Below, piece after piece: positions 3,097-22,862 of a DNA stretch of 23,431 bases. Made by a program: the position numbers and the translations under genes. The notes under the pieces are model-generated. The model was not told where the DNA came from. It worked only from the letters and a program-made list of their open reading frames with translations, and did no database searches. The stretch covers positions 1 through 23,431 of the IMG/VR virus record IMGVR_UViG_3300024895_000019; one strand, 5' to 3'. The DNA is from a virus. The stretch's first letter is position 1, and every line of letters starts with the position of its first letter.

Positions 3097-3572
3097 TTTA
3101 TTGGTGTTAAATAGATTTTACTTTCTTTTTTTCGGCGATTTGTTAATCCCGTGCTAATCATTCCGTTTGCCTTATTCCATTTTAGGAACTCATTGGCAAT
3201 AGTTTTGTCGTTTGGGTTAGCATTTACTTTTTTAAGCAAAGTGCTGTCCCCTAATCCTTCAGGAATATCATCGGCATCAATGTCAGTTCCCAAGTTATAG
3301 GCAAAATCAACCAGGGTATTAAATTGGTTTTGATTTACATTAGATTTAATGAGACCAGAAACATCTTTAGCAAATAAATCAGCGGTTGTGCGAAACATTT
3401 GTTCAGCAAATTCTTTTGTTATTGGTGCGTCTTTTAGAGTTACTTTTTTGCCGTTTGGATAAACGGTATTACCATAACCAATGGTTGGAACTCCAGCACT
3501 ACACAAATAAGGTTTTAGACTTAATCCTTCAAATTCTTGGATTAACTTATATCCCGCTTGATCTAACTTCAT
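3093..3572 (-). CDS. Phage endolysin, lysozyme family (GH24)
   Basis: A 159-residue muramidase that cleaves the MurNAc-GlcNAc bond of peptidoglycan. The N-terminus carries the GH24 signature: EFEGLSLKPY, then a Cys, then the PTIGYG motif. The catalytic E-8-D/C-5-T spacing is present as Glu15, Cys24 and Thr30; Cys in the second position is known in the lambdoid R-type branch. A second conserved block (NQNQFNTLVDFAYNLG) and a C-terminal LTNRRKKE motif complete the domain. There is no signal peptide or signal-arrest segment, so release should depend on the upstream candidate holin. It overlaps the holin stop by one base and the spanin start by four. Confidence 0.9.
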   Translation of the reverse strand: MKLDQAGYKLIQEFEGLSLKPYLCSAGVPTIGYGNTVYPNGKKVTLKDAPITKEFAEQMFRTTADLFAKDVSGLIKSNVNQNQFNTLVDFAYNLGTDIDADDIPEGLGDSTLLKKVNANPNDKTIANEFLKWNKANGMISTGLTNRRKKESKIYLTPIK

Positions 3573-3856
3573 TATGCTTTTCCGTTAAGTTGCTTGAATT
3601 TTTGTAATTCCTCAACTAAATGCTGATTGACACCCATTAATTCACGGTGTTGTATTTCTAGCGACTTAATAGTTTCAGTTGCAGCGGTTAATCGGGTTGC
3701 CATATCATCGAGCAAATCACGATAATATTTAACAGCCGTTACAGCGTTGTCTAATTCAGCAGCTCTGTCTTCAGCTAGGTTTTTTCGCTTAGAAAAAAGC
3801 CATGTTATCAATGCTGAGAAAAAGGCGGCTAATGTTGGATATACAAATTGTTCCAT
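3572..3856 (-). CDS. Candidate holin (one membrane segment plus coiled coil)
   Basis: A 94-residue protein if started at the ATG at 3854-3856 (MEQFVYPT). It has one N-terminal transmembrane segment at about residues 5-21, a basic stop-transfer KRK, and a long heptad-like coiled coil over about 30-90. A longer start at 3886 exists, but that extra stretch lies inside the terminator hairpin at 3867-3903, so the shorter start is preferred. Position immediately before the endolysin suggests a holin or holin accessory that permeabilises the inner membrane. With only one membrane segment and no family recognised, the role rests mainly on context. Confidence 0.55.
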   Translation of the reverse strand: MEQFVYPTLAAFFSALITWLFSKRKNLAEDRAAELDNAVTAVKYYRDLLDDMATRLTAATETIKSLEIQHRELMGVNQHLVEELQKFKQLNGKA

Positions 3857-10043: not shown

Positions 10044-11204
10044 TTGTATGGCAGTCGTTGTGATTGTTGCGGTGGCGAACTGCACGACCTAGCCGACGAC
10101 ACTGAAGACTGGGATAAAATATACGACGATATTGCCAGGCAATTGCTTAATGGCGAAGACTTGAATACCGATGCTGTTTATAATAAAACAGCTACGCAAT
10201 TAATTTCCGCAATGAATAAAGGCCTCGGAGGAACTTCCTTCGATGACAATGACAGCCGTCTGGCTTTGCAAAACGCATTCAAAGCCAATTTAGAGCAATT
10301 CAGCTATGCTAAAACCTTAACGCAATTTCATTTGTTCAAGGATTCGATGTTTAACGACAAAGGACAAATTCAATCCTTTGCCACGGTAAAAAAAGCCGTT
10401 GCCGACATAGGCGAAGTATTCAATAAAAACTATCTCGCAGCCGAACACCAATTCGTTACCCAATCCGCAATTATGTCGCATAAATGGGACACATTGGATT
10501 CGGAATATTTAGAATTTACCACCGTTGGAGATAGTCGAGTGCGACCAGAACACAAGATTTTTGACAAGTTCACGGCTCTTAAAACTGATCCTATTTGGAG
10601 ACGGTTGTACACGCCATTGGATTGGGGTTGTCGTTGTACTGTTATTCCTGGCATAAGTAAAAATATAAGTAAGGAATATGACAGCGAATGGGCAAACAAG
10701 ATGGTTGACCCCTTGATAAAAGGAACGATATTCGATAACAATGTGGGGATTAGCAAAGTGATATTTACGGACAAACACCCTTATTTTAAAGAGACCGTAG
10801 CGAAAAATGATAGTTATGATTATGGTATTAGTTCTAGTAAGATTGAAGCCAATAAACCACTAAAAGAACAACGGATTGAAATTAGAGATTGGGTAAAAGA
10901 AAATATTATAGGTAAAACCATAAATCATCCTAATATTGAAAATCCAATTCATTTTACCGTTACTGGTATAAAAGAAGCTTTAAATCAACCGCATAAGTTT
11001 ATTGTAGAGAAGAATGAAGCTATTAGAACAATTAAAAAGAGAATCAAAGAAGCAGAATTCATAAAAACCGTTAAAGATAGTAAGGGGAGAGAAATTGAGT
11101 ATCATTACTTAAAAACAAGTATAAATAACGAGGATTCATTTATTGTCATAAAAATGGAAGCTAATAGAAATTCGTTCTACTCAATAGTAGATAAATTAAA
11201 ATAG
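10044..11204 (+). CDS. MuF-like head morphogenesis protein with C-terminal candidate toxin domain
   Basis: A 386-residue protein. Residues about 1-215 are the MuF minor head protein: a CxxCGG segment near the N-terminus, a helical middle, and the conserved FTTVGDSRVRPEHKIFD and PLDWGCRCTVIPG motifs. Residues about 260-386 are an extension with a helix KPLKEQRIEIRDWVKENI, the block PIHFTVTGIKEALNQPH, and an alternating C-terminal beta part. This resembles the Barnase/EndoU/RelE-like nuclease domains (PBECR type) found on MuF proteins. The extension is markedly more AT-rich (hand count: 16/60 GC at 10861-10920 against 30/60 at 10081-10140), suggesting domain acquisition. No ATG exists near the start; TTG at 10044 is the best candidate, and the frame is open further upstream. 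Confidence 0.75.
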   Translation: MYGSRCDCCGGELHDLADDTEDWDKIYDDIARQLLNGEDLNTDAVYNKTATQLISAMNKGLGGTSFDDNDSRLALQNAFKANLEQFSYAKTLTQFHLFKDSMFNDKGQIQSFATVKKAVADIGEVFNKNYLAAEHQFVTQSAIMSHKWDTLDSEYLEFTTVGDSRVRPEHKIFDKFTALKTDPIWRRLYTPLDWGCRCTVIPGISKNISKEYDSEWANKMVDPLIKGTIFDNNVGISKVIFTDKHPYFKETVAKNDSYDYGISSSKIEANKPLKEQRIEIRDWVKENIIGKTINHPNIENPIHFTVTGIKEALNQPHKFIVEKNEAIRTIKKRIKEAEFIKTVKDSKGREIEYHYLKTSINNEDSFIVIKMEANRNSFYSIVDKLK

Positions 11205-12829: not shown

Positions 12830-13411
12830 TTATTTGAACTCATTTAGTCGAGAAGACATATTTTTCAAGTACCAGGACCCATCTTCACGAATGAAGTTAT
12901 ACCAATAACCATCTTTATCTTTTCGAACGCTATAGATGCCTGTTGTCATCGTTTTTTCAGTTGTAGCTGTTGGCTCGATTTCCTTTTGATAAAAAGGAAA
13001 TAAGTCCAAAAATGCACCCTTCACAACATCAAAAGCATATTCTTTTACCCCTTTGATTTCTAAGTCCGGATTTGCTCCAACTTCATTTATTTTGAAATCT
13101 ACACATAGGCAATTTTCATTTATAAAAGAATATCTTCCCGTTGTTTTATACCTATAAACATAAGCCTTGACTGATTCTTTTTCAACATCACTTAACCCTT
13201 CTTTGATGTATATAAATGAGTAAGTAAGGGCATAGCCAGATATAGCACTGTCAAGAAAAACAAACTTTGTTTTAGCTCCAAAGGCTATTTCATCTGAAAG
13301 TTTTCGAGCAAATTCCAAATTACATTTATTGGCTTTATTTAACAAATCAATATTTTGCGCTTGGACAAACAATCCAAACAGCAGTGCGATGAGTAGTAAT
13401 ATTTTTTTCAT
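12830..13411 (-). CDS. Secreted protein of unknown function
   Basis: A 193-residue protein with a clear Sec signal peptide (MKKILLLIALLFGLFVQAQ, cleavage predicted around residue 19). There is no lipobox and no second membrane segment. The mature part contains a few Cys and a C-terminal block GIYSVRKDKDGYWYNFIREDGSWYLKN. This may fold as an SH3- or GW-like small beta domain, but no family is recognised. It is not a structural phage gene by position. It lies 12 bases after the Cys-rich protein gene and is probably transcribed with it from the promoter near 13625, suggesting expression in the lysogen. Confidence 0.6.
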   Translation of the reverse strand: MKKILLLIALLFGLFVQAQNIDLLNKANKCNLEFARKLSDEIAFGAKTKFVFLDSAISGYALTYSFIYIKEGLSDVEKESVKAYVYRYKTTGRYSFINENCLCVDFKINEVGANPDLEIKGVKEYAFDVVKGAFLDLFPFYQKEIEPTATTEKTMTTGIYSVRKDKDGYWYNFIREDGSWYLKNMSSRLNEFK

Positions 13412-13423
13412 AATCTCTTAATT

Positions 13424-13597
13424 TTATTTACAAACACCACATTCTCCACCATCTTTAGCACAGTGCTTACAATATTTACAATTTTTACAAGCAGAACAGT
13501 TTTTTGAACCCGTACACTTCTTGCCGCTATACTCATAAGCAATTGATGCGCCAGCTAATAAAAGACCGAGAGTGCTAAAAAGGATAATTTTTTTCAT
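13424..13597 (-). CDS. Small secreted Cys-rich protein
   Basis: A 57-residue protein if started at the ATG at 13595-13597 (MKKIILFST); a longer start at 13624 would place non-signal residues first. It has an N-terminal signal peptide of about 20 residues, then a mature part of about 37 residues with eight Cys in regular CxxC spacing (CSACKNCKYCKHC, then CGVC). Such Cys repeats fit metal binding or a disulfide-rich peptide. A periplasmic or outer-surface role is inferred. It is first in the accessory block, behind a TACATTTG promoter box. No phage structural role is evident. Confidence 0.6.
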   Translation of the reverse strand: MKKIILFSTLGLLLAGASIAYEYSGKKCTGSKNCSACKNCKYCKHCAKDGGECGVCK

Positions 13598-13621
13598 AGT
13601 ATTTATTTTTAAGTTATTGTC

Positions 13622-13654
13622 CAAATGTATGAATAATATTAAGTGAATTCTAAA
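13622..13654 (-). promoter_or_regulatory. Candidate promoter for the accessory (moron) block
   Basis: TACATTTG on the minus strand (13622-13629) is a perfect TAnnTTTG -7 box about 25 bases before the ATG of the Cys-rich gene. The -33 element is weak (TTTA at 13651-13654, 21-base spacing). It overlaps the 3' end of the DGR accessory gene, giving the accessory block its own start of transcription. Confidence 0.4.
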
Positions 13655-13935
13655 TATTCATTTCTCTTTACTATTGTTGTGGTAAATGGAAATTTGTCTT
13701 TTGGTACTTTTTTAATAACTTGGATCAATATTGTTGCTCCTGTGAACACTACTCTTTTTCGGTCATCAATTACAATCTGTAAAGTCAAATAATCGGAGTT
13801 GAGTTTCTTTTTGGATGGTTCTATTTTGAAGTCGTGGACTGTTATCGGAACATTCAATATTTCGTCTATTTTTATGCTTTTTCCTGCGAAGTGCATTACT
13901 TCGGTTTCTATTCCTAAATCCGAGAACTTGGTCAT
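13639..13935 (-). CDS. DGR accessory protein (non-Avd), 98 aa
   Basis: A 98-residue protein encoded directly behind, and overlapping, the DGR reverse transcriptase. It begins MTKFSDLGIETEVMHFAGK, has a central beta-rich region (about 28-75, including TLQIVIDDRKRVVFTG), and ends VPKDKFPFTTTIVKRNEYLEFT. The beta-rich, OB-like character and the aromatic C-terminus suggest a nucleic-acid binding fold; this is inference. As remembered, similar short proteins follow DGR RTs in Bacteroidota elements, where they would replace the helical-bundle Avd. It is not an Avd homologue by length or composition. Its ATG lies in the 3' part of the RT frame just after an A7 run. Confidence 0.75.
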   Translation of the reverse strand: MTKFSDLGIETEVMHFAGKSIKIDEILNVPITVHDFKIEPSKKKLNSDYLTLQIVIDDRKRVVFTGATILIQVIKKVPKDKFPFTTTIVKRNEYLEFT

Positions 13936-14881
13936 TTGAGTTGAATTTTTTTAATAAATGTTTTGAATCGCAGTGTTTGAGCCAACCCCAATAGGCGGCT
14001 TTAACTGCTTTGTTGTTTTTGGTAAATGCTTTGGCAGCACGTTTTTTGATTGTTTTGCGAAGTCTTGTGTGGGTGTGGTAGAAAACATATCCCACAAAGT
14101 CAATCCCTCTTTTCTCGACTGGAAAAACTTGGTAATTACCTTTTACGTGTAGTTTTAAATTATCGTTTAAATACTGTTTAATCTCCGATAAAAGAGCGTG
14201 CAAATCTTGTTTATTGTCGGTGAGTACGACAATGTCATCAGCATATCTGAAGTAGTATTTTACTTTTTTGGTTTCCTTGATCCAATGGTCAAAACCTGTA
14301 AGGTAGAAATTAGCAAAATATTGACTCAAGTAGTTGCCAATGGGTATACCGTCGGAACTGTCAATGATTTCATCCAGTAACCACAATAGGTCTCTGTCTT
14401 TAAATTTACTACGGAGTTGATTTTTTAAAATTTGATGATTTACCGAAGGATAAAATTTGGTAATATCTAGTTTCAAACAGTAAGTAGTACCAGGTACATC
14501 GGCCAAAGCTTTTTTAACTGCTTTGGCAGCCGAATGTATCCCTTTTCCTTTTATTGAACTGTAGGTATCAGTTGTGAATAGTTTTGTAAATATTGGCTCC
14601 AGAACATTCATTATGGCGTGGTGCGTAATACGATCAGGAAAGAACTTTAATTTTGAAACTATCCTTTCTTTTGGCTCATACACTTTGAAATTGATATAAG
14701 GAGATGTTTTATACTCTTTATTCTTCAATATCTCGTGAAGCTTCAAAATATTACTTTCCTTATTCCTGTTGTGAATCATCACACCTCTTTGTTTTGATTT
14801 GCCTTTTTGTGCCTTTGCATCGGCAATGACAAGGTTTTCAATACTGATTATTTCGCTATATAGATTGTTGTATCTTTTCAA
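13766..14881 (-). CDS. DGR reverse transcriptase
   Basis: A group II-intron-like retroelement RT of the DGR class that copies the TR RNA with errors at adenines. Palm-domain catalytic aspartates are Asp139 (CLKLDITKFYPS) and Asp215/Asp216 in FRYADDIVVL. The DGR-diagnostic motif [IVL]GxxxSQ is present as IGNYLSQ (residues 181-187). The thumb ends near GWLKHCDSKHLL (299-310). No maturase or endonuclease domain follows, as expected. The start is TTG at 14879-14881, as no ATG exists in frame before TGA; MKRYNNLYSEI is a good DGR-RT N-terminus. The last ~57 residues (315-371) overlap the accessory gene out of frame and look non-homologous, probably because of the A7 run at 13946-13952. Confidence 0.93.
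   Translation of the reverse strand: MKRYNNLYSEIISIENLVIADAKAQKGKSKQRGVMIHNRNKESNILKLHEILKNKEYKTSPYINFKVYEPKERIVSKLKFFPDRITHHAIMNVLEPIFTKLFTTDTYSSIKGKGIHSAAKAVKKALADVPGTTYCLKLDITKFYPSVNHQILKNQLRSKFKDRDLLWLLDEIIDSSDGIPIGNYLSQYFANFYLTGFDHWIKETKKVKYYFRYADDIVVLTDNKQDLHALLSEIKQYLNDNLKLHVKGNYQVFPVEKRGIDFVGYVFYHTHTRLRKTIKKRAAKAFTKNNKAVKAAYWGWLKHCDSKHLLKKFNSNDQVLGFRNRNRSNALRRKKHKNRRNIECSDNSPRLQNRTIQKETQLRLFDFTDCN
13946..13952 (-). other. A7 homopolymer at the RT-accessory junction
   Basis: In the RT frame this reads TTA AAA AAA TTC, a perfect A AAA AAA slippery heptamer. With 8 A (or a -1 slip) the RT would end after IQLK at a TGA overlapping the accessory ATG (ATGA). With 6 A (or a +1 slip) it would fuse in frame to the accessory protein. 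As written, the RT runs 57 residues into an unrelated frame. Confidence 0.7.
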
Positions 14882-15106
14882 AGCCTTTGTATTATTGGGT
14901 CACTTTCTTGACAAAAAAGAATACTAATGACCCGTTAAAAATTGTGATTTTTTGCCATGATGGCACGGTTTGCATCGAAATAATATTTTTACATGGTGGG
15001 AGCTGCAGTTCGTATTCGTATTCCAGTTATCGACATTGTTCAACGACCAGCCCGAAGAGGGAGACCGAACAAGAAACCACAGCTTTCAATGCACAACCTT
15101 TATGAT
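14882..15106 (-). ncRNA. DGR template RNA region
   Basis: The 225 bases between target gene 1 (ends 15107) and the RT (starts 14881) hold no protein gene on the minus strand but contain the template repeat. In a DGR this transcript folds and is used by the RT as primer-template for mutagenic cDNA synthesis. Sequence downstream of the TR (14882-14994) is presumably the structured part needed for RT binding. The boundaries of the RNA are inferred. Confidence 0.75.
14995..15064 (-). repeat. DGR template repeat (TR)
   Basis: 70 bases that match VR1 and VR2 except at adenines (minus strand). There are 17 adenines in this interval; 13 of them differ in at least one VR, and no other base differs. 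Read in the VR frame the TR would encode S-P-S-S-G-W-S-L-N-N-V-D-N-W-N-T-N-T-N-C-S-S, with Asn codons (AAC/AAT) at the positions that vary, the usual design of a DGR template. The left 23 bases of the minus-strand TR contain no adenine and are invariant. Confidence 0.95.
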
Positions 15107-15481
15107 TTATAAAATTTCTTTTATCAAATTAGAGAAGTTTTCCCAAAAGAAACGTCCTATCGCTCTCGTTCTAAACACACGGCGGGAGCCGCAGTACGCA
15201 GCCGTACGCCAGTCATCGACAACGTCCAACGACCAGCCCGAAGAGGGAGAGTTGTAGTAGACATTCTCGTACTTAGTCTGATTGCCGTCTAAATAGTCAG
15301 CAATCCACGGAGTTTCTTGTCCTTCGTTATTCAAAGCCCTAATTACAACGTCTAGTTTGTAGTTATTAATTACGGCGTTTTTGTCAGCTTCATTTTGAAG
15401 ATGGTCAACGATAGGCATTAATGTAATATCTAATCCTTCAGCGATAAATGCTTTTTCAATTGTGTTAATTGTTGATTCCAT
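15107..15481 (-). CDS. DGR target protein 1
   Basis: A 124-residue protein whose residues 78-100 are encoded by VR1. The N-terminal ~75 residues are helical and variable; a segment YKLDVVIRALNNEG...YLDGNQTKYENVYY is shared in pattern with target 2. The variable part reads SPSSGWSL (invariant), then D-V-V-D-D-W-R-T-A-A-Y, then the invariant C-G-S-R, in a scaffold recalling the C-terminal CLec-type fold of DGR targets (GW...W...GSR). About 24 residues follow the VR, ending in an amphipathic helix. There is no signal peptide, membrane segment or tail-fibre repeat. The ligand is unknown. Its gene is directly upstream of the TR. Confidence 0.88.
   Translation of the reverse strand: MESTINTIEKAFIAEGLDITLMPIVDHLQNEADKNAVINNYKLDVVIRALNNEGQETPWIADYLDGNQTKYENVYYNSPSSGWSLDVVDDWRTAAYCGSRRVFRTRAIGRFFWENFSNLIKEIL
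15181..15250 (-). repeat. DGR variable repeat 1 (VR1) in target 1
   Basis: 70 bases aligned without gaps to the TR at 14995-15064. The 12 differences are all at TR adenines on the minus strand (+ strand TR positions 14997, 15004, 15010, 15013, 15015, 15016, 15021, 15022, 15028, 15036, 15037, 15040). New bases are of all three kinds (G, C and T). The last bases of the coding-strand VR, GGCTCCCGCC, are the likely IMH. Confidence 0.95.
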
Positions 15482-15486
15482 TTGTT

Positions 15487-15963
15487 TTATTTAATTAAGT
15501 TGATATAAATTTCTTTGAATGTATCCCAAGCGTATTGTGCGTGTTCGGGGTCGAAGAACGCAAGGCGGGAGCCGCAGTACGTATGCGTATTCCAGTAACC
15601 GACAAAGTACAACGACCAGCCCGAAGAGGGAGAGTAAATGTACACAAGTTGGTACTTTCTTTGGTTGCTATTGCCCCAGTCCATAACCTCTTTTTTGTCT
15701 GCATTGAAGCAACGACTAATTAAAAGTGCCTGACGTAGTGCATTGGCCGCTATGTCATCTGGATCATCGCTAGTGCAGATGTAATCTTTTGGATTTTTAC
15801 CCATTTCTCTACATACATCATCGAATTCTGAAATTCGTTTCATAATGTCTGGTTGGAATGTTTTGATTCCGAAAAGATTTTCTAACATTACTTTTCTTGG
15901 AGATTTGGCTTTAGAATAAGCCTCTAATACTTTGTCCTTTGGGACGGTTAATGTGTCATTCAT
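15487..15963 (-). CDS. DGR target protein 2
   Basis: A 158-residue protein, paralogous in its C-terminal half to target 1. The N-terminal ~60 residues contain the segment FGIKTFQPDIMKRISEFDDVC, which I recall from Bacteroidota DGR target/hypothetical proteins. Residues 111-133 are encoded by VR2: SPSSGWSL, then Y-F-V-G-Y-W-N-T-H-T-Y, then CGSR. The scaffold around it (a YQLVYIY strand before, LAFFDPEHAQYAWDTFKEIY after) is typical of the small DGR target family with a CLec-like C-terminal fold. No secretion or membrane signal is seen. The gene is 5 bases upstream of target 1, in one operon with it, the TR and the RT. Confidence 0.88.
   Translation of the reverse strand: MNDTLTVPKDKVLEAYSKAKSPRKVMLENLFGIKTFQPDIMKRISEFDDVCREMGKNPKDYICTSDDPDDIAANALRQALLISRCFNADKKEVMDWGNSNQRKYQLVYIYSPSSGWSLYFVGYWNTHTYCGSRLAFFDPEHAQYAWDTFKEIYINLIK
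15564..15633 (-). repeat. DGR variable repeat 2 (VR2) in target 2
   Basis: 70 bases aligned without gaps to the TR. There are nine differences, all at TR adenines (+ strand TR positions 14997, 15004, 15010, 15016, 15028, 15030, 15036, 15037, 15040). Seven of the variable sites are shared with VR1 but several carry different bases, so the two VRs were mutagenised separately. Confidence 0.95.
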
Positions 15964-15980: not shown

Positions 15981-16502
15981 TTATTTAATTTTTCTATCGG
16001 TTTTCATTTTTGCTAAATCATCCAACATTGGATTAAAATTCTTTGTGCTTACGGGTTCGGCGTATTCATCATTAAATCTTTGCTTATTAATCCAAGTGCC
16101 TAATAGAGCTTGTGCTATTGTAGATTGAGCCAGTTTCTTTTTGTATTTTGGAACCTGGATAAAGCATTTTATTTTTTCCTGTTCCGTGAGCTTGTTAAAG
16201 AATTTTTCTGCATCTTTTCGAGCCTCTTTATAGTCGTACAATTTCCAAAGAGCTTCAAAACTTAAATCGGCTGGCGACTTTTCGATGGTAAATACTTTGG
16301 TGTATTTTTCATTTTTCATCCAGAGCGTGGTCATATCATTCTCATTGACCGGAAACCGACTGAAAAGCCATTTTAGTTGGTCGTCCCGCAATTGTCCGGC
16401 ACTTACTTCAAAGAGTTTTAAATTGCTGTTTAAATCGTATTTAAACAGCAATACAATATCTATTTTTTTGCCTTTGGCTCGGTAGGTTGTTAGCTGTTCC
16501 AT
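15981..16502 (-). CDS. Early-operon protein of unknown function
   Basis: A 173-residue charged protein with Lys/Glu helices. The N-terminal half is beta-rich (KKIDIVLLFKYDLNSNLKLFEVSAGQL, about 12-38), and the central part has a Phe/Trp-rich helix pattern (LSFEALWKLYDYKEARKDAEKFF). No motif or domain is recognised. It overlaps the upstream DUF4406-like gene by 13 bases and precedes the DGR targets, so it is part of the same leftward transcript. A DNA-metabolism role is only suggested by its neighbours. Confidence 0.6.
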   Translation of the reverse strand: MEQLTTYRAKGKKIDIVLLFKYDLNSNLKLFEVSAGQLRDDQLKWLFSRFPVNENDMTTLWMKNEKYTKVFTIEKSPADLSFEALWKLYDYKEARKDAEKFFNKLTEQEKIKCFIQVPKYKKKLAQSTIAQALLGTWINKQRFNDEYAEPVSTKNFNPMLDDLAKMKTDRKIK

Positions 16503-16831
16503 TCACGTTTCATTTTTGATAATTTCCTAAAATAATCTACCTCATAAACAATAGATATTCCGAGCGTTTTGGCTAAATCCAATTCTATTTTCGCACCAGG
16601 AGAATCATCGTAATTATCTAGCATCAAAATCAAGTCGCATTCCATAAGTGATGCGATACATTTTCGCATTGCTATTTTCCAAGGACATTTCCAGTCATTG
16701 ACAACTAGCAAGGGATTGACAGCTTCGTGTCCTAATTTTTCGATGGCTATTTGTGCCAGTCCAAAGTTCATTGTGCATTCTGCGATTGGCAATCCGGTAA
16801 CTTTCCCGGCGATGTATATTTTCTTTTTCAT
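16490..16831 (-). CDS. DUF4406 / nucleoside 2-deoxyribosyltransferase-like protein
   Basis: A 113-residue protein with the DUF4406 opening KIYIAGKVTGLP (about 4-15), an Asn-Pro segment (EAVNPLLV), and MECDLILMLDNYDDSPGAKIELDLAKTLGI (about 63-92). The last part resembles the conserved 'D-x-[ILV]-x-x-[ML]-x-x-[WYN]-x-x-S-x-G-A' motif of nucleoside deoxyribosyltransferase-like Rossmann folds. These phage proteins are thought to act on nucleotides or DNA precursors, but activity is unproven. Overlaps the neighbouring genes by 4 and 13 bases in one early operon. Confidence 0.75.
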   Translation of the reverse strand: MKKKIYIAGKVTGLPIAECTMNFGLAQIAIEKLGHEAVNPLLVVNDWKCPWKIAMRKCIASLMECDLILMLDNYDDSPGAKIELDLAKTLGISIVYEVDYFRKLSKMKREWNS

Positions 16832-22016: not shown

Positions 22017-22862
22017 TTAAGCAGCTCTTTTGTTGGCGAATACTAATCTTTTTACTCTTCTAAGATCACCGTCGCAATCTTTAGATATTCCTCTAATAGC
22101 TTGCTCATCGGTCAATCCATTAATCTCACAAACAGCCTTTACATCTGCATAAGTGGTTGGGTCTAACTCTATGAAGCGAAGCCCTACACGGCTATAGATT
22201 TCGCGGTATCCTTTTTTCTGTTGGGCGATACCACGACGGATTCTTTTTTCAAGGTATTGGGTTGCCATTATTATAATTCCGCAATGTCCTTCTAGCTCGT
22301 TGTATAGAGTGATAAAAAACAACAGTACTGCATCGGCCAGTTTATCGGCTTCGTCTAAAATAATTATAGGGTTAGCGGCTGATTTTAAAGAGATAATTGC
22401 TTTTTGCATCATTTCCGGCATTGTCATACCGTCGGTTTCTTTACCCATTTTTGAAAGTAGTTCACGTAAAAACCATTTTTTATCCCAATATTCATTGCAG
22501 GACAAACGGAATACGTTTTTATTTTCGCTTTCATAGTTTTTAGCCGCTGCCGTTTTACCACATCCTGAAGTCCCTGTGATTGCCAGAACCAAGGCGAAGT
22601 TTTGAGACTCAGAGTATAAATTTAAAAGCAATTTATAGTTTCCAGTTTCAGCAAGCTTCCATTCATTGGTTCCAACTCCTAGAAAGGCTCCAACCTTGCG
22701 CCACATTTCTTCAGCTATGTTTTCCCAGTTGTGATTTCTCATTTGTGAAAGCGTGGCAGCTGATACTGATTTCATTTCAGCAGCCACTTTGTTTTGAGAG
22801 CCTTTTTGTGCAATGTAACGTTCTAGGTTTTCTACTATTGTTAATTTGTCTTGGTGTGTCAT
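22017..22862 (-). CDS. MuB-like AAA+ transposition activator
   Basis: A 281-residue ATPase of the MuB family, which binds DNA, delivers target sites to the MuA transpososome and provides target immunity. The N-terminus (about 1-65) is a lambda-repressor-like helix-turn-helix with QNKVAAEMKSVSAATLSQM. Walker A is GTSGCGKT (residues 97-104), Walker B is IIILDEAD (about 167-173), a sensor-like IIMATQY follows near 207, and there is a C-terminal helical lid. Length and domain order match MuB and related AAA+ partners. It is the gene next to the transposase, in the Mu A-B order. Confidence 0.9.
   Translation of the reverse strand: MTHQDKLTIVENLERYIAQKGSQNKVAAEMKSVSAATLSQMRNHNWENIAEEMWRKVGAFLGVGTNEWKLAETGNYKLLLNLYSESQNFALVLAITGTSGCGKTAAAKNYESENKNVFRLSCNEYWDKKWFLRELLSKMGKETDGMTMPEMMQKAIISLKSAANPIIILDEADKLADAVLLFFITLYNELEGHCGIIIMATQYLEKRIRRGIAQQKKGYREIYSRVGLRFIELDPTTYADVKAVCEINGLTDEQAIRGISKDCDGDLRRVKRLVFANKRAA

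Follow-up and report, generated by a model that had tools for sequence, protein, structure and literature searches.

Results of our analysis indicate that the 23,431-base virus fragment of record IMGVR_UViG_3300024895_000019 (the window, i.e., the whole stretch of DNA that was analysed) carries on its minus strand a diversity-generating retroelement (DGR), which probably represents an Avd-less reverse transcriptase (RT) lineage in a Mu-like Bacteroidota phage, works with an accessory protein, reads adenines of the 5'-YAG-3' context as G, and diversifies two early, intracellular targets. As a DGR, the element belongs to a known kind; it is set apart by its rule for adenine contexts, by the family of its accessory, and by the location of its targets in the early region. 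According to the explanation that we favour, the RT, probably helped by the OB-like accessory, would copy an RNA comprising the template repeat (TR) together with ~110 nt of spacer. Most template adenines would give rise to random bases and the adenine of 5'-YAG-3' almost always to G, and the cDNA would replace the variable repeats (VRs) of two tandem paralogous target genes, which are encoded beside early transposition genes and whose products probably act inside the cell. Since YAG would be read as G and the other adenines at random, one TR would encode both random and fixed positions.

The order of the DGR features, all of which are on the minus strand, is from 5' to 3' target gene 2 (15963-15487), target gene 1 (15481-15107), TR, spacer, RT gene (14881-13766), and an ORF of 98 aa (13935-13639). 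The TR (14995-15064; 70 nt, 17 adenines), which is located next to the RT gene, aligns without gaps with VR1 (15181-15250) and VR2 (15564-15633), each of them inside an ORF. Realignment agreed with the preliminary description of three 70-base repeats: 12 substitutions in VR1 and 9 in VR2 fall exclusively on TR adenines, with none at the other 53 positions. Under random placement, the chance of all mismatches landing on 17 of 70 sites is 5.8e-10 for 12 mismatches and 3.7e-7 for 9, and the same three copies were recovered by a repeat search, over 73 nt. The adenine-only change claimed in that description thus holds with respect to the sites of substitution, but the change is not completely random, and one adenine context is nearly deterministic. 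Thirteen of the 17 TR adenines vary in at least one VR and four (three AAC and one TAC) are unchanged in both, while the adenines of the single CAG (15004) and of a CAC (14997) are replaced by G in both VRs. The 3' end of the TR (14992-15006, minus strand) is IMH*-like in the TGCAGCTCCCACCATG region, where the VRs read TGCGGCTCCCGCC and are IMH-like; in the relatives, fixed TR/VR differences near this end are CAC to CGC and TAT to TTT. The spacer between the TR and the RT gene (14882-14994, minus strand; ~113 nt, and ~105 nt in the relatives) contains a TGCC/GGCA hairpin at 14953-14965, which is kept in the relatives, and is likely a part of the template RNA. The stem-loop just after the VR was weak (mean z -0.77; 20 of 138 below -2).

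The RT, whose gene has a TTG start, contains IGNYLSQ and YADD, in accordance with the [IVL]GxxxSQ and YxDD motifs of DGR-clade enzymes. In the comparison of its profile with solved structures, the DGR RT of phage BPP-1 (8ub7, 9e-68) was far ahead of other RTs, the best group II intron RT scoring 2.5e-30, and PHROG 1423 reverse transcriptase was matched at 3e-122; the previous assignment of this gene as encoding a DGR RT is supported by these results. The RT ORF runs past its usual end into the next gene (the 98-aa ORF), which is read in another frame. A programmed frameshift joining the two products was considered and appears unnecessary, since they are encoded by separate, overlapping genes in most relatives and are truly fused in 19 loci.

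The 98-aa protein, which matches phrog_19665, is linked to the RT. Its relative is encoded 3' of the RT gene in 113 of 117 loci of this phage's group, in 39/47, 59/102, and 24/52 loci of three other groups, and beside the RT gene in 0/58 loci of the BPP-1 set. Avd is encoded in 64 of 68 BPP-1-type loci, never together with the accessory. No bAvd match was found among the window proteins scanned, and an iterated profile started from BPP-1 Avd detected none in the close relatives. The accessory model (pLDDT 88.9) has a weak likeness to OB folds (RuvB-like, HIN, RPA, and SSB domains), all at E above 0.1, and a sequence-profile search of solved structures gave chance-level matches only. We infer that the accessory may be a nucleic-acid-binding partner of the RT and may stand in for Avd.

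The window encodes proteins of Mu-like families, namely a MuB-like DNA transposition protein (22017-22862, minus strand, phrog_296 match), whose gene belongs to the early block on that strand, as well as an ATPase, terminase, portal, head proteins, and tail sheath. No MuA gene was seen in the 23.4 kb fragment. Among named relatives, the nearest one to share this gene order is a Flavobacterium suncheonense prophage, the locus of which (L129) is identical over 11 kb to a viral locus of our set (L006). The proposed identity of the source as a Mu-like Bacteroidota phage is supported by these genes and by this gene order. Three minus-strand genes in the neighbourhood of the DGR are worth recording: one directly downstream of it (13424-13624), for a small, exported-looking, very cysteine-rich protein (CKNCKYCKHC...CGVCK); an adjoining one (12830-13411), for a 193-aa protein with an apparent signal peptide and with homologues near the DGR in five relatives; and one in the early gene block (16490-16831), for a DUF4406 / nucleoside 2-deoxyribosyltransferase-like protein, which recurs near related DGRs.

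The two target genes encode proteins of one family, of 124 aa (target 1, with the VR in the C-terminal third, followed by a helix) and 158 aa (target 2, model pLDDT 91.5). No convincing Pfam or NCBIfam match was found for this family, and 51 of its 56 members match phrog_11581 of unknown function. Among solved folds, the target model had no counterpart at E <= 0.001, C-type lectins included (best TM 0.23), and a sequence-profile search of solved structures gave chance-level matches only; the counterparts of the model are uncharacterised phage proteins, several of them crAss-like. The target protein used as a query against viral contigs retrieved 0 relatives, and those studied here came via RT loci. 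In these relatives, the DGR is located downstream of MuB-like and ATPase genes of the same strand, and MuF-like and portal genes follow further on, on the other strand. Target homologues in annotated phages are encoded away from tail genes, in the case of phage Versailles among recombination and replication genes. The gene position suggests early expression of the targets, which are small proteins that probably act inside the cell; their participation in an arms race with variable host factors is no more than a guess.

Relatives were fetched with the RT as 45 close viral loci, 80 more viral loci, and 80 genomic loci, and three further locus sets were fetched with RTs from BPP-1, from a Bacteroides genome, and from a Nitrospirota genome. 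Adenine-biased TR/VR pairs were present in 179 of 206 first-set relatives and in 189 of 228 others. In the group of this phage, the TRs are of ~75 nt, and upstream of them lie as a rule two VR genes, occasionally three, at about -190, -590, and -1000. A Dysgonomonas locus (L164) has a third VR at 554-626, ~7.3 kb upstream of the TR, i.e., a remote target within the contig, and in another locus (L008) a target end is duplicated in tandem, so that two identical VRs are found at a distance of 113 nt (3558-3746). In pairs of near-identical phages (RT genes at least 95% identical and nearly the same TR), all of them relatives, as this phage itself is represented by one record, the VRs differ at 450 of 863 TR-A sites vs. 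18 of 2808 other sites. Such a concentration of differences is what continuing mutagenic retrohoming predicts.

Four target homologues carry a VR of the distant TR of their own phage, tens of kilobases away. In phage Versailles (ON453897.1, gene at 10181-10762), this VR is of 107 nt and has 14 mismatches at adenines and 0 others. Small early-region genes of three crAss-like phages contain the other such VRs (NC_055890, 5070-5477; NC_055891, 14118-14525; NC_055888, 83524-83928). Of these phages, cr52_1 has a VR of 63 nt with 12 and 0 mismatches, cr56_1 one of 65 nt with 16 and 0, and cr60_1 one of 63 nt with 14 and 2. The scores of these VRs were 39-93, vs. at most 18 in shuffled sequence. In all four phages, a tail-type target is also encoded beside the RT gene, and the genes with remote VRs are apparently unannotated second DGR targets. 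We read them as cases in which a small protein, probably an intracellular one, is the target of retrohoming from a distance. Such remote targets escape surveys that consider only VRs close to the RT gene, a limitation stated in PMC8144416 itself.

The analysis of adenine contexts included 421 distinct TR/VR pairs of 194 TR lineages. In the part of the RT tree that excludes the BPP-1 side, 848 of 879 YAG adenines correspond to G in the VR (31 not G), compared with 39 of 80 RAG adenines (41 not G; Fisher 2.7e-30), and adenines before A are near random. With one VR per TR lineage, the YAG value is 95.6% of 429. YAG sites at the 3' end, and many at the 5' end, may be outside the converted tract (IMH), so that only interior sites, i.e., those with an adenine changed to C or T on either side, count fully; at these, CAG corresponds to G in 99% and 96% of cases in the two groups nearest to the window and in 87% and 92% in two others. 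In near-identical phage pairs, YAG sites were G/G in 56 cases, A/G in 3, and A/A in 1. The BPP-1 set behaves differently, with 4 G and 7 A at YAG in only 11 observations, and its TRs avoid YAG (5 YAG vs. 134 YGG, 0.04 of YRG), while YAG makes up 0.30-0.64 of YRG in the TRs of the other groups; RAG is 0.09-0.21 of RRG in all groups. A branch with 98% local support in a quick RT tree is in line with this split. A dependence of the rule on the accessory was rejected, as the rule holds both with and without it. In nine annotated phages, mostly crAss-like, G replaced adenine in 41 of 46 YAG but also in 15 of 15 RAG, which indicates that the 5' requirement varies from lineage to lineage and is not universal.

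The fixation of G at YAG might be ascribed to purifying selection on the target proteins, in which random variants are lost where glycine codons (GGN) are needed. Most YAG adenines are indeed first codon positions, at which G gives glycine, and the 3' YAG sites fall in a conserved GSR motif. Nevertheless, at fourfold-degenerate third positions within the converted tract, interior YAG outside the BPP-1 set still corresponds to G in 48 of 51 cases (3 A), whereas non-YAG contexts are mixed, so that amino-acid selection is not the main cause, and protein-level selection as the sole cause is rejected. RAG, moreover, is much less biased towards G, and a TR that needed several simultaneous chance changes of A to G would rarely yield a working copy; we regard such selection as improbable. 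Another scheme would be faithful copying of YAG by the RT, followed at integration by mismatch repair of the host, which turns T:G mismatches back to the G of the old VR. It would require no special RT, and the old VR has nearly always G at YAG, but the repair would have to be 5'-CTR-specific in Bacteroidota, Bacillota, and other hosts. Repair of the CpG type would act on CAC too, where interior first-position adenines became G in only 49 of 120 cases, and is disfavoured by these sites. This scheme seems to us as improbable as the former one. A slipped template whose 3' neighbour is used again, as proposed for BPP-1 (PMC12875486), fits the change of A to G before G, but the change of A to C before C that it also predicts is rare here. 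The latter change is more frequent in the BPP-1 set (14% in AAC) than in well-sampled contexts elsewhere (0-10%), which suggests that natural VRs reflect the enzyme bias. The VRs have passed selection, and the mutation spectrum is therefore seen only indirectly in them. The RT itself would be the most plausible source of the YAG rule.

Concerning the targets, they might be virion adhesins which are merely encoded apart from the tail genes. Known phage DGR targets are mostly tail proteins (PMC8144416), and one relative, in phage Versailles, is annotated by HHpred as 'tail protein'. On the other hand, the targets are small and match no solved C-type lectin, the MuB-like gene is upstream on the same strand in the relatives with head genes on the other strand, and the Versailles homologue is encoded beside NinB, SbcC-like, and replisome genes in a phage in which a separate tail protein is the other DGR target. 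We consider adhesins unlikely, albeit less so than the two alternatives to the RT discussed above. The view of the element as an inactive relic with repeats that are old duplicates, to which the overlong RT ORF overlapping the next gene could point, is highly improbable: every mismatch is on adenines, the RT is open and has its catalytic motif, loci L004 and L005 retain the same overlap, and near-identical relatives differ at TR-A sites.

In previous studies, substitutions in 155 surveyed DGRs were called essentially random (PMC3521204), and bases were described as incorporated in roughly equal proportions (PMC8144416). All NAN contexts were mapped for BPP-1 in E. coli, with G misincorporation raised before C, and the text of that report mentions no fixed YAG outcome (PMC12875486). 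Our search of the openly licensed literature revealed no earlier report of the YAG rule. If true, a near-deterministic adenine context changes how repertoire sizes are counted, explains the retention of TR adenines at invariant residues, and provides a way to protect residues when such RTs serve as tools. Early-gene targets, if true, mean that phage DGRs serve not only host attachment but also events inside the cell, abundant gut phages included. We tentatively put forward, as a possibility to which we give somewhat less than even weight, that a two-symbol template code (YAG to G, other adenines random) is built into the majority of DGR RTs outside the BPP-1 side and that one branch of them diversifies small intracellular early phage proteins, which might, e.g., bind variable host factors. 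In Mu-like phages this would take place in cis; in crAss-like gut phages it would take place in trans, with the small protein as a second target.

The DGR of BPP-1 (bRT, Avd, Mtd) is similar to that of the window in the order of target, TR, and RT, in the adenine-specific transfer from TR to VR, in the RT family, and, as it seems, in the IMH/IMH*-like 3' end. It differs in having Avd, in place of which there is an OB-like accessory here, and in its target, which is a tail fibre and not a small early-region protein; its relatives lack the YAG rule, while YAG adenines are fixed to G in the lineage described here. DGR accessories listed by Wu et al. 2018 include Avd, HRDC, MSL, and one protein to which, as mentioned in PMC10053308, neither Pfam nor CDD assigns a family; this last one could be of the family of our accessory. 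The preliminary comparison with hankyphage is apt insofar as the latter is also a Mu-like Bacteroidota phage (of Bacteroides) with a DGR. It fails, however, for the targets and for Avd: the hankyphage VR covers C-terminal residues 2188-2225 of its target, a large C-type lectin tail protein, and an Avd-like gene is present in that phage (PMC6199706, PMC12135933), while the targets here are small and early and Avd was not found. The DGRs of crAss-like phages (crAssphage LMMB lineage 3; cr52_1, cr56_1, and cr60_1) encode a related RT (~50-55% identity) and convert YAG and RAG to G. Avd has been reported absent from crAssphage LMMB (PMC7290462), the C-terminus of the cr55_1 RT is accessory-like, and cr52_1, cr56_1, and cr60_1 have a small target homologue far from the RT gene. 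Their main target, however, is a tail protein encoded next to the RT; the small gene, which lies tens of kilobases from it, serves as a second one.
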